Assembly (NCBI GenBank): GCA_943789365.1
Contig: CALSTV010000001.1
Span: forward strand, 3,495,343-3,559,342
Reading direction: 5' to 3'
DNA length: 64,000 nucleotides
Source of the DNA: an uncultured Flavobacteriaceae bacterium
Lineage (GTDB): Bacteria; Bacteroidota; Bacteroidia; Flavobacteriales; Flavobacteriaceae
Part shown: in pieces, positions 1,514 to 48,916 of the stretch
Numbering within the stretch: position 1 is the first letter of the stretch
Layout: every line of letters begins with the position of its first letter
Position numbers and translations under genes: made by a program
The notes under the pieces: model-generated
What the model was told of the DNA's origin: nothing
The model's input: only the letters and a program-made list of their open reading frames with translations
Database searches by the model: none

Positions 1514-1587
1514 GGGGCATTAACTCAGTTGGCTAGAGTACTTGGCTGGCAGCCAAGAAGTCATCGGTTCGAATCCGATATGCTCCA
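1514..1587 (+). tRNA. tRNA-Ala (anticodon GGC)
   Basis: A cloverleaf can be folded by eye. The acceptor arm GGGGCAT pairs with ATGCTCC and contains the G3-U70 wobble that is the identity element of alanine tRNAs. The anticodon stem CTTGG/CCAAG has loop CTGGCAG, giving anticodon GGC at 1548-1550. The T-arm is ATCGG-TTCGAAT-CCGAT. The discriminator is A1587 and CCA is not encoded. It stands alone between accA and a decarboxylase gene. Confidence 0.95.
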
Positions 1588-3002: not shown

Positions 3003-3564
3003 GCACTTTCTTGTTTTTAAACCATTCGGCTATATATCCCAATTTGTAAATAACAAAAACAGAAAGAAAAAACTGTTAGGTGATTTGTACAACTTCCCGG
3101 AAGGGATTATGGCTATAGGAAGACTCGATGCCAAATCTGAAGGTTTGTTGTTGTTGACCACCGATGGCAAATTAAGCGACACCATCTGTAGGGGTGGTGT
3201 AGAAAAAGAATATTACGTACAAGTCGATGGCCAGATCACAAAAGAGGCGATTCAAGCTATGGAGGCAGGCGTAGAGATCGGTTTCAAAGGGATAAGATAT
3301 TTTACAAAACCCTGTGTTGTAAAAAGCTTGCAAGAAACACCTTTGTTTTATGCTAAAACGCCAAAAATACGAGATGAACGACATGGGCCAACCAGTTGGG
3401 TGTCGGTATGCATTAAAGAAGGAAAATTTAGGCAAGTACGAAAAATGACTGCGGCTGTAGGTTTTCCAACCTTACGTTTAGTTCGCGTACGAATAGGAAA
3501 AATACAATTAGGAGAACTCAAAGAAGGTCAAGTTATAGAAAAACAAGAACTTGAGTACGAATGA
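2995..3564 (+). CDS. rRNA large-subunit pseudouridine synthase, RsuA/RluE type
   Basis: A 189-residue RsuA/RluB/RluE-family pseudouridine synthase, which isomerises a specific uridine in rRNA. The family signature GRLDAKSEGLLLLTTDG holds the catalytic aspartate at D45, and the C-terminal KEGKFRQVRKMTAAVGFPTLRLVRVRIG is the usual end of the catalytic domain. There is no N-terminal S4 RNA-binding domain, which fits RluE (U2457 of 23S rRNA) better than RsuA or RluB, but the target site is an inference. It overlaps the decarboxylase by 8 bp and is probably cotranscribed with it. Confidence 0.85.
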   Translation: MDKHFLVFKPFGYISQFVNNKNRKKKLLGDLYNFPEGIMAIGRLDAKSEGLLLLTTDGKLSDTICRGGVEKEYYVQVDGQITKEAIQAMEAGVEIGFKGIRYFTKPCVVKSLQETPLFYAKTPKIRDERHGPTSWVSVCIKEGKFRQVRKMTAAVGFPTLRLVRVRIGKIQLGELKEGQVIEKQELEYE

Positions 3565-3649
3565 GCAAACCGTCTTTATTGGAATGCTTTTTAAAAGCCA
3601 TGAGTACAAATAGACACAAGCAAAAACACCGAAAAAAAACAAGCCTTCA

Positions 3650-3682
3650 TTTGTTGTTTTTTTAATAAAAATAGTATATTTG
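3650..3682 (+). promoter_or_regulatory. his operon promoter
   Basis: A -33 element TTTG (3650-3653) and a -7 box TATATTTG (3675-3682) are separated by 21 bp, matching the Bacteroidota sigma-A pattern. Transcription would start near 3689, about 14 nt before the leader peptide ATG. Confidence 0.7.
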
Positions 3683-3702
3683 CATCGTTAGTAAAAAAAC
3701 AA

Positions 3703-3759
3703 ATGAATACAACACAAATACATCATCATCATTCTAATACTTGTAGTCAAACGAGCTAG
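3703..3759 (+). CDS. hisL: his operon leader peptide (four consecutive His codons)
   Basis: An 18-codon ORF reading MNTTQIHHHHSNTCSQTS, with His codons 7-10 at 3721-3732. It sits between a good promoter and a rho-independent terminator, 113 bp before hisG. By analogy with enterobacterial HisL its translation should sense charged tRNA-His: a ribosome stalled on the His codons leaves bases 3747-3753 free for antitermination, while one that reaches the stop codon covers them. The ORF is too short for normal gene finders. The leader and its structure are seen in the sequence; the mechanism is inferred. Confidence 0.85.
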   Translation: MNTTQIHHHHSNTCSQTS

Positions 3760-3825
3760 GAATGTTGTGTATAGAATAAACATATTTTCAAAAAACCCGT
3801 TTGAGCAATTCAAATGGGTTTTTTT
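3747..3825 (+). promoter_or_regulatory. his attenuator: alternative antiterminator and terminator
   Basis: Terminator: CCCGTTTGA (3796-3804) pairs with TTCAAATGGG (3810-3818, one G-T wobble) and is followed by T7 (3819-3825). Antiterminator: TCAAACG (3747-3753), inside the last codons of the leader ORF, is perfectly complementary to CGTTTGA (3798-3804), the 5' arm of the terminator, so the two structures exclude each other. The layout gives a coherent attenuation switch for the downstream his genes. It is a prediction from base pairing only. Confidence 0.8.
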
Positions 3826-3872
3826 CATATAAACCTATTCAATGTAGTTGCTGAAACACAATAAAAATTAAA

Positions 3873-4733
3873 ATGACAAAATTAAAAATCGCCATTCAAA
3901 AATCAGGAAGATTAAACCAAGAATCTCTAGGTTTGTTAAAAGCATGTGGAATTTCAATTGATAATGGAAAAGATCAATTAAAAGCCTCTGCACGTAATTT
4001 TCCGGTAGAAGTATTGTATTTAAGAAACGGTGACATCCCGCAATATCTTAGAGACGGAGTTGTAGATGTGGCAATAATTGGAGAAAATACCTTGGTTGAA
4101 AAAGGAGAAGATTTATCAATTATTGAACGTTTGGGATTCTCTAAATGTCGTGTTTCTCTTGCAGTACCTAAAGAATTCAACTACACAGGAATCCAAGATT
4201 TAGATGGGAAACGTATAGCAACATCATACCCAAATACAGTAAATAAATATTTGAAAGAACAAGGGATTTCTGCCGATATTCATATCATCAATGGTTCTGT
4301 AGAAATTGCACCAAATATTGGATTGGCTGACGCTATATGTGATATCGTTTCTAGTGGTTCTACCTTATTTAAAAACGGTTTAAAAGAAGCAGTGCAAATG
4401 TCTGTTAGTGAAGCCGTATTAACAGCAGGGCCAAATTTAACCAGCGAAAAACAAGAAATACTAGACACCATACAATTTAGAATTCAATCTGTATTAAGAG
4501 GTCAAAACTCAAAATACATCTTATTGAATGCACCAAACGATAAAATAGATTCAATTTTAGAGTTGCTTCCTGGAATGAGAAGTCCAACCGTATTGCCATT
4601 AGCAGAAAAAGGGTGGAGTTCGATACACACCGTTGTTCAAGGGAAAAGTAAGTTCTGGGACATCATAGACGAACTAAAAAAGAGAGGTGCAGAAGGCATT
4701 TTAGTAGTGCCAATCGAAAAAATGGTATTGTAA
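3873..4733 (+). CDS. hisG: ATP phosphoribosyltransferase, long form
   Basis: First enzyme of histidine synthesis: condenses ATP with PRPP to phosphoribosyl-ATP, and is the usual point of feedback inhibition by histidine. At 286 residues it is the long (HisG-L) form, with a periplasmic-binding-like catalytic domain (KIAIQKSGRL at the N-terminus, a phosphate-binding loop near CDIVSSGSTLFKNGL around residue 160) and a C-terminal ACT-like regulatory domain from about residue 215. It therefore does not need HisZ. It is the first gene of the eight-gene his operon, behind the attenuator. Confidence 0.97.
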   Translation: MTKLKIAIQKSGRLNQESLGLLKACGISIDNGKDQLKASARNFPVEVLYLRNGDIPQYLRDGVVDVAIIGENTLVEKGEDLSIIERLGFSKCRVSLAVPKEFNYTGIQDLDGKRIATSYPNTVNKYLKEQGISADIHIINGSVEIAPNIGLADAICDIVSSGSTLFKNGLKEAVQMSVSEAVLTAGPNLTSEKQEILDTIQFRIQSVLRGQNSKYILLNAPNDKIDSILELLPGMRSPTVLPLAEKGWSSIHTVVQGKSKFWDIIDELKKRGAEGILVVPIEKMVL

Positions 4734-4751
4734 GCGATAAAAGCAAAAAAA

Positions 4752-6038
4752 ATGCAAATCACTAAGAATCCTCCAAGAGAAAATTGGAACAGTTTGACAG
4801 ATAGACCTGTCAAAGAAGCAAATGATCTGACTACTATTATCAAAGAAGTCTTTGACAATGTTAATGAACAAGGTGATAAGGCTTTAAAAGAATATACGTT
4901 AAAATTTGACAAAGCAAACCTTTCTAACTTTAAAGTAAGTCAAGATGAAATAAATGCAGCGAGTACTTCCTTATCTTTAGAGCTAAAGGAAGCCATTGCA
5001 TTGGCGAAAAATAATATTGAAGTATTTCACAGTGCTCAATTGACTCAGAAAAAAGTAATTGAAACGGCTCCAGGTGTGTCTTGTTGGCAGGAAATGAGAC
5101 CTATAGAAAAGGTAGGTTTATACATTCCTGGAGGAACTGCACCATTGTTTTCAACCATATTGATGCTAGGGATACCCTCAAAATTAGCAGGCTGTAAAGA
5201 AATTGTATTGTGTACACCACCCAATGCCAAAGGAGAAGTAAATCCAGCAATATTATATGCGGCACAGTTGGTAGGGGTTACGAATATATTCAAATTAGGT
5301 GGAGTACAGGCTATAGCAGCATTAACCTATGGTACGGAGAGTGTACCTAATGTGTATAAAATATTTGGACCTGGAAATCAATTCGTGACAGGGGCAAAAC
5401 AATATGCCCTAACACAAGGCGTTGCCATTGATATGCCTGCAGGGCCATCGGAATTGATGGTAGTTGCAGACCAATTAGCAGACCCCGCATTTGTAGCATC
5501 AGATTTACTGTCACAAGCAGAACATGGACATGACAGTCAGGTTATTTGTGTTGCAAACACAATAGAAAGTCTGGTTGCCATTGAAGCTGAAGTAACTGCA
5601 CAATTGGCAGTGCTTCCTAGGAGAGATATGGCTACAAGTGCCATCGCGAATTCGCAATTGGTATTGATTGAAAATACGATGGATCAAATTGATTTTATTA
5701 ATGAATATGCACCTGAACACTTGATATTGAATGTGCAGAATGAGAATTTGTACTTGGATAGAATCGTGAATTCAGGATCTGTTTTTATTGGTCCCTATAC
5801 GCCTGAAAGCGCAGGAGATTATGCTTCAGGAACCAATCATACCTTACCTACAAATGCCTATGCTAGAATGTATAGTGGGGTAAATATGGATGCGTTTACT
5901 AAAAAAATAACTTTTCAAAAACTCTCAAAAGAAGGCATTGAAAGCATAGGAAGTGCTATTGAGTTAATGGCTGAGGCAGAAGGCTTGCAAGCGCATAAAA
6001 ATGCAGTAACATTACGATTAGAAAGTTTGAAAAAATAA
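4752..6038 (+). CDS. hisD: Histidinol dehydrogenase
   Basis: Catalyses the last two steps of histidine synthesis, histidinol to histidinal to histidine, using NAD and zinc. The 428-residue product is of family length. The pattern PAGPSELMVVAD is followed by SQAEHGHDSQV, which carries a zinc ligand pair, and the C-terminal part has YAPEHLIL and SGTNHTLPT. The start is 18 bp after hisG, consistent with operon transcription. Confidence 0.97.
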   Translation: MQITKNPPRENWNSLTDRPVKEANDLTTIIKEVFDNVNEQGDKALKEYTLKFDKANLSNFKVSQDEINAASTSLSLELKEAIALAKNNIEVFHSAQLTQKKVIETAPGVSCWQEMRPIEKVGLYIPGGTAPLFSTILMLGIPSKLAGCKEIVLCTPPNAKGEVNPAILYAAQLVGVTNIFKLGGVQAIAALTYGTESVPNVYKIFGPGNQFVTGAKQYALTQGVAIDMPAGPSELMVVADQLADPAFVASDLLSQAEHGHDSQVICVANTIESLVAIEAEVTAQLAVLPRRDMATSAIANSQLVLIENTMDQIDFINEYAPEHLILNVQNENLYLDRIVNSGSVFIGPYTPESAGDYASGTNHTLPTNAYARMYSGVNMDAFTKKITFQKLSKEGIESIGSAIELMAEAEGLQAHKNAVTLRLESLKK

Positions 6039-6089
6039 ATAGTGTAATGACAATTCGATAGATTCAAATTTTGTCAAACAGTTTAGAAA

Positions 6090-7133
6090 ATGAGTTTTGA
6101 TTTAAATAAAATAGTAAGAAACAATATAGCAAAGCTAAAAGCCTATTCTTCTGCTCGAGATGAATTTGAAGAAGCAACTGCCAATATGGTTTTTTTGGAT
6201 GCAAATGAAAACCCATTTCAAAATGGTGTAAACCGCTATCCAGACCCAAAACAAACGAGTGTAAAAAAAATGCTAGGCGACATAAAAGGGCTGCCAAGTG
6301 ATCAAATCTTATTGGGGAATGGAAGCGATGAAGTGCTCGATTTACTTTTCAGAGCTTTTTGTGAGCCTAAAGAAGATAATGTCCTATTATTACCTCCAAC
6401 CTATGGAATGTACGGTGTGTTGGCCGCATTGAACAATGTAGCTACAAAAGAAATTGTCTTGACAAAAGATTTTGATATTCGAGAGCAAGCGACGATTGCA
6501 GCCGCAGATGATAACACTAAAATTGTATTTCTATGCTCACCTAACAATCCTTCTGGAAATGCTTTTTCAAAAGAGAAAATTCAATACGTATTAGATAATT
6601 TTAACGGATTGGTCGTAATAGATGAAGCCTATATAGATTTTTCAAACAAAAAAAGTTGGTTGGAGAAATTAGAACAATACCCAAATCTAATCATTACACA
6701 AACCCTTTCAAAGGCATTTGGAATGGCAGGGATACGATTAGGAATTTGTTATGCTTCCACAGCAATTATTGAGGTCTTAAATCGTATCAAACCACCTTAT
6801 AACGTAAATGAACTTACACAACAAAAAGCGAAAGAGCGTTTGTCGAAGTACGATCAAGTAAAAGCCGAAATTGCAACTTTACTGGAGCAAAGAACAGTTT
6901 TAGAAGATGCATTACACAGTGTTTCTTATATCTCTAAGATATATCCATCTGACGCAAATTTTATTTTGGTAAAAGTTGATGATGCAAATAAGAGGTATGA
7001 GCAATTAATAGCTAAAGGTATTGTAATAAGAAATCGAACAACGCAACAGCTCTGTGAAAATACGTTGCGATTGACAGTTGGAACTGAGATAGAGAATAGT
7101 AAATTAATAAAGGCGTTGAAAGAAATAGCCTAA
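6090..7133 (+). CDS. hisC: Histidinol-phosphate aminotransferase
   Basis: PLP enzyme (fold type I, class II aminotransferase) that converts imidazole acetol phosphate plus glutamate to histidinol phosphate. The 347-residue protein shows LDANENPF near the N-terminus, NGSDEVLDLLFRAF, the conserved FLCSPNNPSGN, the cofactor contact VVIDEAYIDF, and the Schiff-base motif TLSKAFGMAGIRLG with the lysine at K208. It is the third gene of the his operon, 51 bp after hisD. Confidence 0.96.
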   Translation: MSFDLNKIVRNNIAKLKAYSSARDEFEEATANMVFLDANENPFQNGVNRYPDPKQTSVKKMLGDIKGLPSDQILLGNGSDEVLDLLFRAFCEPKEDNVLLLPPTYGMYGVLAALNNVATKEIVLTKDFDIREQATIAAADDNTKIVFLCSPNNPSGNAFSKEKIQYVLDNFNGLVVIDEAYIDFSNKKSWLEKLEQYPNLIITQTLSKAFGMAGIRLGICYASTAIIEVLNRIKPPYNVNELTQQKAKERLSKYDQVKAEIATLLEQRTVLEDALHSVSYISKIYPSDANFILVKVDDANKRYEQLIAKGIVIRNRTTQQLCENTLRLTVGTEIENSKLIKALKEIA

Positions 7134-7176
7134 CCAAATAATATTCTTTTTTTAGCTAAAGAAAAACATAAAAACA

Positions 7177-8316
7177 ATGAAAAAAGTACTTTTTATCGAT
7201 AGAGATGGAACCTTAGCCATTGAGCCGCCAGTAGATTATCAATTGGACAGCTTGGAAAAATTAGAGTTTTACCCAAAAGTATTTCAATACATGGCGAAGA
7301 TTGCCTCAGAGCTAGACTATGAGCTCGTTATGGTGACAAATCAAGATGGTTTAGGTACCGAATCGTTTCCTGAAGACACTTTTTGGCCTGCTCAGAACAA
7401 AGTGATTCAGGCTTTTGAAAATGAAGGCGTTGTGTTTTCTGACATTGTAATCGATAAAACCTTTCCGCATGAAAACGCACCTACCCGTAAGCCTAGAACA
7501 GGATTGTTAACCAAATACATAGATTCTGAAGCATATGACCTTGAAAACTCTTTTGTGATAGGAGATCGATTGACTGATGTAGAGTTAGCAAAGAATCTAG
7601 GAGCCAAAGGAATCTATATAAATAATGTAGATGGATTGGCAACTGAAGAACTTTCGGTAAAACATACTGAACTTGAAGCTGTTATTGCTTTGGAAACTAC
7701 GTCTTGGAAAGCTATATATGAGTTTTTGAAGTTAGAAGCACGTACGGCCGAAATCACCAGAAACACCAACGAAACCAAAATATATATCAAGTTAAACTTA
7801 GACGGTTCAGGTAAAAATGACATCCATACCGGTTTGCATTTCTTCGATCATATGTTAGATCAAATTGGAAGACATGGCGCAATGGATTTAACTGTAAAGG
7901 TTGATGGAGATTTGGAAGTGGATGAGCACCATACTATTGAAGATACGATGATTGCTTTTGGTGAACTGTTTAACAAAGCACTTGGCAATAAGTTAGGGAT
8001 CGAACGTTATGGATTCTGTTTACCTATGGACGATTGCCTGGCACAGGTAGCTGTAGATTTTGGAGGCCGTAATTGGCTGGAATGGGATGCTGAATTTAAA
8101 AGAGAGAAAATTGGTGATATGCCAACTGAAATGTTCTTTCATTTGTTCAAATCCTTTACAGACGGTGCCAAATGTAACTTAAACATAAAAGCTGAAGGTG
8201 TGAATGAACACCATAAAATTGAAGGTATTTTTAAAGCATTTGCAAAAGCGATGAAAATGGCGGTAAAAAGAGATGCGAACAAAATGTTTTTACCGAGCAC
8301 AAAAGGAATGCTTTAG
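7177..8316 (+). CDS. hisB: Bifunctional histidinol-phosphatase / imidazoleglycerol-phosphate dehydratase
   Basis: A fused two-domain enzyme of 379 residues. Residues 1 to about 165 are a HAD-type histidinol phosphatase (FIDRDGT with nucleophile D8, then VTNQDGLG and the C-terminal [17 protein letters not shown]). From about residue 185 on is imidazoleglycerol-phosphate dehydratase, with the manganese-binding repeats [14 protein letters not shown] and DEHHTIEDT. The fusion is the arrangement known from enterobacteria and common in Bacteroidota. A 167-bp spacer without recognisable signal follows before hisH, the widest gap in the operon. Confidence 0.97.
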
Positions 8317-8483
8317 TATCAGTATTTGGTAAAAAGTAGTAAGTTTTTTGTGAATTGAATAATTAGCAGAAATAGAAAATTTGATGAGTTTATGTAACGA
8401 AATTTAAAAAATGAATTATGGGTTACAAAAGAGTTTAATCTAGTACTTAGTACTTTAGACTCATTACTGAATACTAAAACAAT

Positions 8484-9065
8484 ATGAAAATAGTAATTAT
8501 AAATTACGGAGCAGGAAACATACAATCTATCAAGTTTGCAGTACAACGACTTGGTCATGAAGCGATATTGAGTAATGATCCGGCTGAAATAAAAGCAGCA
8601 GATAAAGTAATCTTCCCCGGTGTTGGAGAAGCGAGTAGTGCTATGAAAATGCTAAAAGAAACAGGTTTAGACGAAGTAATTCCTCAACTTAAGCAACCTG
8701 TTCTAGGCATCTGCTTGGGCATGCAACTTATGTGTAATTCTAGTGAAGAAGGGAACACAAAAGGACTGCGTATTTTTGATGTCGATGTACACCGTTTTGA
8801 AAACAATGTAAAAGTGCCACAGATTGGATGGAATCAAATAGCTGATTTAAAATCGGATTTGTTCACTGGGATTAAAGAAAATGAATTCATCTATTTAGTA
8901 CACAGTTATTATGCGCCACTTTGTAAGAATACGGTTGCAACGACTCAGTATGGGTTAAAATATGCTACAGCTTTGCAAAAAGATAATTTTTACGGTACCC
9001 AGTTTCACCCCGAAAAAAGTAGCAAGGCAGGAACACAGATTTTGAAAAACTTCCTCGAAATATAG
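8484..9065 (+). CDS. hisH: Imidazole glycerol phosphate synthase, glutaminase subunit
   Basis: Class I glutamine amidotransferase subunit (193 residues) that supplies ammonia to HisF. The catalytic triad is visible: C77 in VLGICLGMQ, and H175 and E177 in GTQFHPEKS. The oxyanion strand FPGVGEA lies near residue 45. It is encoded two genes before hisF, the normal arrangement in this phylum. Confidence 0.97.
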
Positions 9066-9090
9066 AAAGTATAAAGTAAATACAAATAAA

Positions 9091-9819
9091 ATGAGAATAA
9101 TACCGGCAATAGACATCATTAACGGACAATGCGTACGACTTTCAAAAGGAGACTATACTACGAAAAAAGTATACAATGAGAATCCTTTGGAAATTGCAAA
9201 ACAATTTGAAGCACACGGTATAGAGCATTTGCATCTTGTCGATTTAGATGGGGCAAAAGCTAGTCATATTGTAAATCATAAAGTACTAGAAACCATAGCA
9301 ACCAAAACAAAGTTAAAAATAGATTTTGGGGGTGGACTTAAAACTGACGATGATTTAAGAATAGCTTTTGAATCAGGAGCAAAACAAATTACAGGTGGGT
9401 CAATCGCAGTAAAGAAGCCCGAAGTTTTTAAAAATTGGCTTTCTAAATTTGGTTCCGATAAAATTATTTTAGGCGCGGATGCTAACAATGAAAAAATAGC
9501 CATTAGTGGATGGTTAGAAGAATCTGATGAAGAACTGATACCATTTGTTCAAAATTATTTAAATGAAGGTGTATCCTATGTTATTTGCACTGATATAGCC
9601 AAAGACGGGATGCTGGAAGGACCTTCCTTTGATTTGTATAAAAAAATGCTGTCTCAACTACCCAATATCAAATTAATTGCAAGTGGTGGTATCTCTACTT
9701 TTGATGAGTTGCCAAAATTAGCTACCTTAGGTTGTGAAGGTACTATCGTAGGAAAAGCAATTTACGAGCATAAAATTAGTTTAAAACAATTAGAAAACTA
9801 TATAGTATCAGGAAACTAA
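9091..9819 (+). CDS. hisA: Phosphoribosylformimino-5-aminoimidazole carboxamide ribotide isomerase
   Basis: A (beta/alpha)8-barrel isomerase of 242 residues that opens the ribose ring of ProFAR by an Amadori rearrangement. The catalytic acids are D8 in the N-terminal [10 protein letters not shown] and the Asp in [13 protein letters not shown] in the second half; the phosphate-binding loops are [11 protein letters not shown] and [11 protein letters not shown]. It is placed between hisH and hisF, 25 bp after hisH. Confidence 0.97.
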
Positions 9820-9861
9820 TTTGTAATAGTAATGATACTGAGTACATAAAACATAAGAAGA

Positions 9862-10617
9862 ATGTTGACAAAAAGAATTGTTCCTTGTTTAGATATCAAA
9901 AACGGTAGAACTGTAAAGGGCGTAAACTTTGTAGATCTTAGAGATGCAGGTGATCCTGTAGAATTAGCTAAGATATACGCAGATACTGGAGCAGACGAAT
10001 TGGTGTTTTTAGACATATCGGCAACAGAGGAAAAAAGAAGAACACTGCTAGATTTGGTAATGAGAGTTGCTGCTGAAGTAGATATTCCTTTTACTGTAGG
10101 AGGTGGAATTTCATCTGTTGATGATATCGATAAGCTATTACATGCCGGTGCCGACAAGGTGTCTATCAATTCATCTGCCGTAAAAAACCCGCAATTAATC
10201 AATGATGCGTCGTCAAAATTTGGCTCACAGTGCATAACAGTGGCAATTGATGCGAAACAGATAGATGGCGACTGGTTTGTGCATCTTGTAGGAGGTAAAG
10301 TACCAACAGATATCAATCTTTTTGAATGGGCACAAGAAGTAGAAGCAAGAGGAGCAGGGGAGATATTGTTCACCTCAATGGATCATGATGGGACCAAAGA
10401 TGGTTTTGCCAATGAAGCTTTAGAAATACTTTCAGAAATGTTGAACATACCAATCATTGCCTCTGGTGGTGCAGGAAATATGCAACACTTTGCGGATACG
10501 TTTATAAAAGGAAAATCGGATGCCGCCTTGGCAGCAAGTGTTTTTCACTTTAAAGAAATTGACATTCAAGACTTAAAAAAAGAGCTTAAAAAACAAGGAA
10601 TTGCAGTGAGAATATAA
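9862..10617 (+). CDS. hisF: Imidazole glycerol phosphate synthase, cyclase subunit
   Basis: Cyclase subunit (251 residues) that joins ammonia from HisH to PRFAR, giving imidazole glycerol phosphate and AICAR. The barrel is half-symmetrical: D11 in [16 protein letters not shown] and the paired Asp in [19 protein letters not shown] are the catalytic acids, and [13 protein letters not shown] and [11 protein letters not shown] bind phosphate. A 185-codon open frame on the opposite strand (9816-10373) is a composition artefact. Confidence 0.97.
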
Positions 10618-10669
10618 TCTGAGTCATATCGATTATAAGCTTATATTTGCACTATTAAAGACAAACAAA

Positions 10670-11263
10670 ATGCATATAGATTTTTCAAAAGACAACGGAT
10701 TGGTTCCTGCTATTATTCAAGATGCAAACACCAAAAATGTATTGATGTTAGGATACATGAACCAAGATGCTTATGATAAAACCATAGAAACAAATAAAGT
10801 AACCTTCTTCAGTAGGTCTAAAAACCGTTTGTGGACCAAAGGTGAAGAAAGCGGTAATTTTCTTGAACTGGTAAGTATTTCTAATGATTGTGATAACGAT
10901 TCATTATTGGTCAAAGTAAAACCAGTTGGACCGACTTGTCATACTGGGACTGACACCTGTTGGAAAGAAGAAAACGAATCTACTTACGGTTTTTTCTCAA
11001 CACTTGAAGATGTGATTTCAGAAAGAGTGGCTAACAAGGATACAAAAAAATCATATGTAGCGAGTTTGTTTTCAAAAGGAATCAATAAAGTAGCTCAGAA
11101 GGTTGGCGAAGAAGCAGTTGAAACGGTTATTGAAGCTATGGATAACAATGATGAGCTGTTTATATATGAAGCATCCGATTTGTTATTTCACTATCTAATG
11201 TTGTTGCAAGCGAAAGGCTTTAAGCTTAAGGATATTGAAGCAGAATTGCTCAAAAGACATTAA
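10670..11263 (+). CDS. hisIE: Bifunctional phosphoribosyl-AMP cyclohydrolase / phosphoribosyl-ATP pyrophosphatase
   Basis: A HisI-HisE fusion of 197 residues catalysing steps two and three of the pathway. The N-terminal cyclohydrolase domain shows LMLGYMNQDAY, FFSRSKNRLWTKGEESGN and the metal ligands in PTCHTGTDTCW. The C-terminal pyrophosphatase domain (from about residue 105) has KVGEEAVETVIEA followed by YEASDLLFHYL. It is the last gene of the operon and a strong terminator follows. Confidence 0.97.
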   Translation: MHIDFSKDNGLVPAIIQDANTKNVLMLGYMNQDAYDKTIETNKVTFFSRSKNRLWTKGEESGNFLELVSISNDCDNDSLLVKVKPVGPTCHTGTDTCWKEENESTYGFFSTLEDVISERVANKDTKKSYVASLFSKGINKVAQKVGEEAVETVIEAMDNNDELFIYEASDLLFHYLMLLQAKGFKLKDIEAELLKRH

Positions 11264-48841: not shown

Positions 48842-48916
48842 GGGCAATTAGCTCAGTTGGTTCAGAGCACCTCGTTTACACCGAGGGGGTCGGGGGTTCG
48901 AATCCCTCATTGCCCA
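48842..48916 (+). tRNA. tRNA-Val (anticodon TAC)
   Basis: The acceptor arm GGGCAAT pairs with ATTGCCC; anticodon stem CCTCG/CGAGG with loop TTTACAC gives anticodon TAC (48877-48879); T-arm GGGGG-TTCGAAT-CCCTC; discriminator A; CCA not encoded. It is followed at once by a strong hairpin and the 123-bp repeat array, and marks the left edge of a variable region. Confidence 0.95.

Follow-up and report, generated by a model that had tools for sequence, protein, structure and literature searches.

How is the his operon of a Flavobacteriaceae bacterium controlled? We focused on the DNA preceding hisG in the window, a 64,000-nucleotide stretch from the genome of an uncultured member of this family. 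The presumed target is hisG-hisD-hisC-hisB-hisH-hisA-hisF-hisIE, at positions 3873-11263 of the forward strand. All eight encoded proteins scored above the curated cut-off of their own NCBIfam model and the hisGDCBHAFIE set is complete. The nearest upstream gene on the same strand ends at 3564. A preliminary description, made from the sequence alone, read the intervening DNA as a classical attenuator that depends on ribosome stalling. Our analysis strongly supports this reading, which we consider very likely to be correct.

All elements of the leader region are on the forward strand. A putative promoter consists of TTTG (3650-3653), a second TTG (3654-3656) and TATATTTG (3675-3682). TTTG and TATATTTG fit the Bacteroidetes-type promoter consensus. 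In relatives, TANNTTTG was found 3-75 nt 5' of the leader ATG at 56 of 111 loci, compared with 7.3% of mononucleotide shuffles. A scan for sigma-70 promoters identified nothing at 3650-3682. This is expected because the motif is not of the sigma-70 type.

Downstream of the promoter, an ORF encoding the leader peptide, MNTTQIHHHHSNTCSQTS, runs for 18 codons from an ATG at 3703-3705 to a TAG stop at 3757-3759. Direct reading and a script both recovered this ORF, and the four consecutive CAT (His) codons within it (CATCATCATCAT, 3721-3732), exactly as first described, to the base. Both features recur in relatives. The candidate antiterminator strand, TCAAACG (3747-3753), is inside the last leader codons. 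A script check confirmed that it is the exact reverse complement, over 7 bp, of CGTTTGA (3798-3804). The latter also contributes to the 5' arm of a predicted intrinsic terminator. Here, CCCGTTTGA (3796-3804) pairs with TCAAATGGG (3810-3818) around a loop (3805-3809), and seven T residues follow (3819-3825). Sequence, fold and pair counts agree with the original placement of this terminator between the leader ORF and the first structural gene, hisG, which starts 3' of the T tract at 3873. The stretch 3761-3830 had a folding z score of -4.4 and only 1 of 200 shuffles was equally stable. Shorter window folds, without the complete terminator, showed no gain in stability over shuffles (z -0.1 to -0.7). 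A terminator scan of 3400-4100 listed no terminator and hence missed the hairpin at 3796-3818, presumably because pairing of the A-run with the T-run consumed the T tract during stem extension.

Regions upstream of hisG were collected at 80 named loci and at 31 loci identified by genome searches. The named loci are the best 80 of 572 and so are biased toward near relatives. A His-rich leader, defined as a short ORF with an HxHxH-type run, was present in 107 of 112 regions, a total that includes both the window and L001, its own copy. The remaining five encode HHY (L011, L103), HTH (L020, L026) or, in L003, HH only, with a different terminator. Using a second definition, a short ORF with at least three His in six codons was found in 108 of 111 upstream regions versus 1.6% of 2,220 dinucleotide shuffles. 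The longest His run was 3-5 codons, mostly three or four, in 101 of the 111 family leaders.

A covariance model built from the leader element, R1, matched 340 of 397 family genomes at E <=0.001. Since hisG was found in 333 of these 397 genomes, either some R1 matches lie outside hisG leaders or the detection of hisG was incomplete. In three genomes where rows were compared by eye (G044, G382 and G001) the R1 site adjoins hisG. The window's own genome has one strong R1 site, that of the window (E 2e-15), and the next match has an E value of 0.0097. Five loci with weak R1 matches elsewhere in this genome were inspected and discarded; no His-rich ORF was present in the central 700 nt.

The antiterminator was assessed using an alignment (A1) of 109 sequences. 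L001, from the window's own genome, and the exact duplicates L091 and L098 were left out; L003 was kept here and excluded from the S1 test described below. The terminator was paired in 96.4% of cells. The antiterminator was paired in 92.5% of cells versus 21-47% when slid, and its covariation score was matched by none of 500 shuffles. Three antiterminator pairs had changed on both sides, a count reached in 72 of 500 shuffles. Hence, covariation of the antiterminator within Flavobacteriaceae is limited. All seven core pairs form in 96 of the 109 sequences, six in nine and five in four (L007, L021, L051 and L061). Six form in L032 and L033, the closest to the window among the relatives listed. 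The usual form in the family is xCTCARGCG with CGTTTGAGx; in the window itself the two outer pairs are unformed. L002 and L035 have an altered terminator arm, GTCTGA, with matching changes in the antiterminator, and L032 has the same arm and retains six core pairs. In L021, L051 and L061 the leader has diverged (MYNLIHHTHRFFSD..), and the terminator (GTCCTTCCTGA..TCAGGAGGGAC) differs too. The last antiterminator pair (loop pair 59-129) is beyond the terminator stem and so is not explained by the terminator. It occurs as G-C, A-U, U-A and G-U, and is unpaired in 40 of 106 sequences. For the representatives it was marginal, at 24 of 39 and 4% of permutations.

We also compared each antiterminator strand with its own and permuted partners, using 39 Flavobacteriaceae representatives of <75% identity. 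Native duplexes had a mean energy of -13.1 kcal/mol, versus -12.0 kcal/mol for permuted duplexes, and none of 20,000 permutations was as good. In four of the 109 leaders an in-frame stop falls within the antiterminator codons, yet the strand can still pair, with at most three G-U pairs. The constraint therefore looks to act on the RNA and not the peptide. RNAalifold alone recovered only the terminator; S1 is variable and the antiterminator overlaps the terminator. The preliminary description had proposed aligning related hisG upstream regions. Across Flavobacteriaceae, that alignment reveals conserved His codons and conservation of both pairings, with some compensatory changes.

Two further pairings, S1 and S2, are additions to the earlier account. 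In S1, a predicted protector stem, leader codons that precede the His run pair with bases directly 3' of the leader stop. The register in the window appears uncertain. In the MFE fold, ACACAA (3712-3717) pairs with TTGTGT (3765-3770), duplex energy selects 3707-3714 with 3763-3770, and the centroid fold has another register. Statistical support for S1, judged by own-versus-cross tests, seems modest. Within Flavobacteriaceae, the native mean was -7.65 versus -6.61 for permuted partners, with 0.00045 of permutations as good. Outside the family, the values were -7.88 and -6.84, with 0.002 of permutations as good (40 representatives). Foreign partners paired better than the native partner in a mean of 39% of cases outside Flavobacteriaceae, and with medians of 25-30% inside. 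In relatives, unlike sequences pair at the S1 places; for example, TTTATTCAGT with ATTGAATAAA in L006. S2 is a local hairpin (3740-3755), in which 3740-3744 pairs with 3751-3755, predicted to sequester the antiterminator strand. It was formed in 76.9% of A1 cells and four of its five pairs show double changes. Because S1 and the antiterminator cross, they probably compete; a pseudoknot is an alternative. Together, S1 and S2 may explain default termination when the antiterminator strand has no ribosome cover.

We are highly confident that the leader controls the his operon by ribosome-mediated transcription attenuation. Computed here are the component parts and how far they are conserved, the evidence from comparison for the antiterminator, terminator, S1 and S2 pairings, and a masked fold. 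From these we infer where transcription starts, that ribosomes stall, that transcripts terminate in the cell and that the system responds to histidine. Briefly, RNA polymerase would start shortly after 3682, judging by the promoter motif, and a ribosome would enter the 18-codon leader. If charged tRNA-His were scarce, the ribosome would stall on the CAT run at 3721-3732. Here it would cover the 5' strand of S1 and, at later His codons, reach the 5' strand of S2. The bases at 3747-3753 would thus be free to pair with 3798-3804 once these were transcribed. The terminator would thereby lose its 5' arm, and polymerase would continue into hisG. With charged tRNA-His, the ribosome would move to the stop codon and cover 3747-3753. 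With no ribosome, S1 and S2 would conceal the same bases. In either case, the terminator at 3796-3825 would form and transcription would end near 3825.

The stalling geometry first proposed holds when RNA is folded with ribosome-covered bases masked. We modelled nascent RNA extending to 3806, with assumed bounds for the ribosome footprint. On these assumptions, the probability of the antiterminator was 0.82 with a ribosome at the first His codon and 0.96 at the fourth. It was 0.0 with the ribosome at the stop codon, or with no ribosome, for the same length of nascent RNA. With the 3' arm present, the equilibrium fold preferred the terminator under every mask (P 0.99-1.0). The core energies were -11.6 kcal/mol for the terminator versus -4.6 kcal/mol for the antiterminator. 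Since the terminator wins at equilibrium in all states, antitermination must be kinetic and decided during transcription. That the choice is made during transcription is the usual assumption for attenuators, and is assumed here too.

We then considered the class of the window's family, which we take to be Bacteroidia. The class sample had 129 hisG places in 127 of 295 genomes, with 168 genomes lacking hisG. Nine places are in the window's family and six are partial or weak. Of the 114 examined, L233 had no tblastn match, giving n = 113. A His leader (ORF of <=60 codons with >=3 His in six) was present in 96 of these 113 regions outside Flavobacteriaceae. Two more places, short or N-containing, were dropped from the shuffle comparison; His leaders were found in 95 of the resulting 111 regions versus 3.5% of dinucleotide shuffles. 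By fixed thresholds, 50 of 113 regions have a leader, a strong terminator and an antiterminator of at least 7 bp. A leader and terminator, with the antiterminator shorter or undetected, occur in 24; a leader without a strong terminator in 22; and no leader in 17. Among these 17, L169 is N-masked, several have coding sequence directly upstream (by eye), and L120 combines two neighbouring His with a terminator.

The antiterminator/terminator helix types differ between these regions. Examples are GGTAGGC/GCTTACC (L119), GCGGGCC/GGCTCGC (L126), ATAGGTG/CGCCTAT (L197) and GCAGGTAG/CTACCTGT (L158). Nevertheless, each antiterminator prefers its own partner: the mean for 40 representatives of the 74 regions with leader and terminator was -13.96, versus -10.79 when permuted, and none of 20,000 permutations was as good. 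Hence, the pattern of His codons and pairings extends, with the helix replaced, to much of the class sample. The 22 regions below the terminator threshold were scanned again with laxer settings. A clear hairpin and T run were evident in L125 and L135, and weaker hairpins in eleven regions. The laxer scan found no terminator of note in L131, L159, L160, L191, L192, L206, L216, L222 and L225. It is possible, though somewhat less likely than not, that the ancestor of Bacteroidia, perhaps even that of the phylum, already controlled hisG through a His leader, that the helix was exchanged in full several times with the His codons persisting, and that some lineages retained the leader and lost the intrinsic terminator. 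If so, stalling in the nine terminator-less leaders would need another output, for example translation or Rho.

Several smaller patterns were seen among these leaders. The terminator-less His leaders of L191, L192, L206 and L225 share a motif, TGTATGTTTCTACGCGAAATAACA, overlapping or just past the stop codon. The His leaders of L131, L136, L157, L159, L160 and L190 end in HHSS, with no strong terminator before hisG; the stop codon of two of them, L131 (TTCCTC..GAGGAA) and L136, lies within a palindrome. In L185, L188 and L203, the His leader precedes a weak A/T-rich hairpin and T run that fall below the threshold (GTTTTG..CAAAAC in L185). Outside the class, 13 of 20 phylum-sample loci had a hisG match and five of these 13 a His-rich ORF; we do not count this set as evidence. 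L246, L248 and L253, also outside the class, have His-rich short ORFs 5' of hisG, with a terminator-like hairpin visible by eye in L246 and L253.

Might the hairpin instead be a mere terminator of the upstream gene, with the His ORF arising by chance and the hisG promoter further 3'? The hairpin does lie between hisG and a gene on the same strand. However, the abundance of His ORFs among relatives, set against their rarity in shuffles (108 of 111 versus 1.6%), argues against chance. With up to ~1,500 bases upstream covered in 112 sequences, the upstream gene, encoding a pseudouridine synthase, was detected in just three: the window, L001 and L033. Thus, L033 is the one other locus besides the window's own genome, and the attenuator is not linked to this gene. 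The antiterminator pairing tests, both inside and outside Flavobacteriaceae, also oppose this explanation, and no TANNTTTG motif was apparent by eye in 3826-3872. We regard it as extremely unlikely.

Another possibility is a TnaC-like mechanism, in which the nascent leader peptide detects free histidine from within the exit tunnel and halts its ribosome. In Flavobacteriaceae the C-terminus of the peptide appears conserved (AQAR and similar), but this conservation tracks the RNA pairing and four leaders have a stop inside these very codons. Furthermore, in regions outside the family, C-terminus and terminator arm change in concert (for example, KTVG in L119 and SNGRS in L114). A nascent-peptide sensor is hence very unlikely. 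Control by a T-box or a metabolite-binding riboswitch 5' of hisG has a precedent, in that T-boxes are reported to regulate his genes in Firmicutes and Actinobacteria (PMC9413887). However, no Rfam riboswitch or T-box matched at gathering in the window or at 18 further his loci, and what is conserved is an ORF with its pairing. Such an RNA sensor seems exceedingly improbable. We therefore favour ribosome-mediated attenuation.

The his leader resembles other leaders in the same genome. Upstream of pheA (L234:2110-2196, - strand), a Phe-rich leader, MKNTFTFTSFFFFFYFFKRSETFCVLSK, is followed by a terminator. Here, the leader strand CGAGACTTTCT, read directly from the sequence, has 11 nt of complementarity to the terminator's 5' arm. 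As at hisG, the leader ORF is rich in its own amino acid and has a strand complementary to the terminator arm; the codons are for Phe and the gene is pheA. Similarly, upstream of trpE (L235:2117-2167, - strand), a Trp leader, MEYNTNNTWWWYSLNS, precedes a terminator. This region matches Rfam family RF01692, Bacteroid-trp, with 63.4 bits. No obvious leader was seen at ilvD of the same genome. Given the pheA and trpE leaders with terminators, the same logic probably applies to his, phe and trp in this genome.

At gathering, Rfam identified only two tRNA genes in the whole window (1514-1587 and 48842-48916). The enterobacterial hisL attenuator (RF00514 His_leader) was not matched and was absent even at E up to 5 in 3600-3900. 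Likewise, the his leader matched neither the T-box covariance model (RF00230) nor RF01692, which was found only at the trpE leader. Among the 18 further his loci and the pheA and trpE loci, Rfam matches were limited to tRNAs and the trpE leader. Relaxed matches in 3600-3900 were all below gathering (the best, PyrR, at 32.1 versus 54 bits) and were taken as chance products of terminator-like features. Like enterobacterial hisL, the leader has a run of His codons in a short ORF, and alternative antiterminator and terminator structures, before hisG. Unlike hisL, which has seven His and a cascade of stems, it has four His, a single antiterminator strand within the ORF and a single predicted protector stem. 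It is also, like Bacteroid-trp, a leader-peptide RNA of Bacteroidetes, but with His instead of Trp codons and another sequence.

Attenuation in the family has been suggested before. A Flavobacterium transcriptome published in 2021 described strong clues to leader-peptide attenuation 5' of amino-acid operons in F. psychrophilum (PMC9723704). The section concerned describes a structured element 5' of hisG that has no Rfam match and is shared with other genera of Flavobacteriaceae (PMC9723704). By that description, it is probably the same element as the window leader. The same section gives no leader sequence, antiterminator, covariation or distribution beyond the family. Elsewhere, PMC2864571 includes Bacteroid-trp, and neither histidine nor hisG occurs as a word in its main text. 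The main text of PMC2965389 contains neither bacteroid nor flavobacteri; as of 2010, it held leader-peptide systems outside Proteobacteria and Actinobacteria to be unknown, one atypical translational leader aside. In PMC8305728, his genes in Bacteroidota are treated and the sole mention of attenuation concerns enterobacteria. Leader-peptide-like sORFs are mentioned for B. thetaiotaomicron, his not among them, in PMC7366714, and leader genes in general are the subject of PMC4833913. We found no description of the parts of a his attenuator in Bacteroidota in the open-access literature searched. The suggestion that the system may be undescribed in Flavobacteriia hence holds, within that literature, for those parts, and gives way for the attenuation clues and the hisG 5' element already reported. 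What is added here is the breadth in the class sample and the absence from Rfam; the mechanism itself is already known.

Classical attenuation requires a ribosome close behind the polymerase. Bacteroidia generally make little use of Shine-Dalgarno initiation. The presence of candidate his attenuators before most sampled hisG genes in the class suggests that ribosome-polymerase coupling works there, and offers a natural reporter for such coupling. The leaders also provide regulatory annotation, missing from Rfam, for his operons. Moreover, they form a series of cases that share a constant His sensor and differ by exchange of one output helix.
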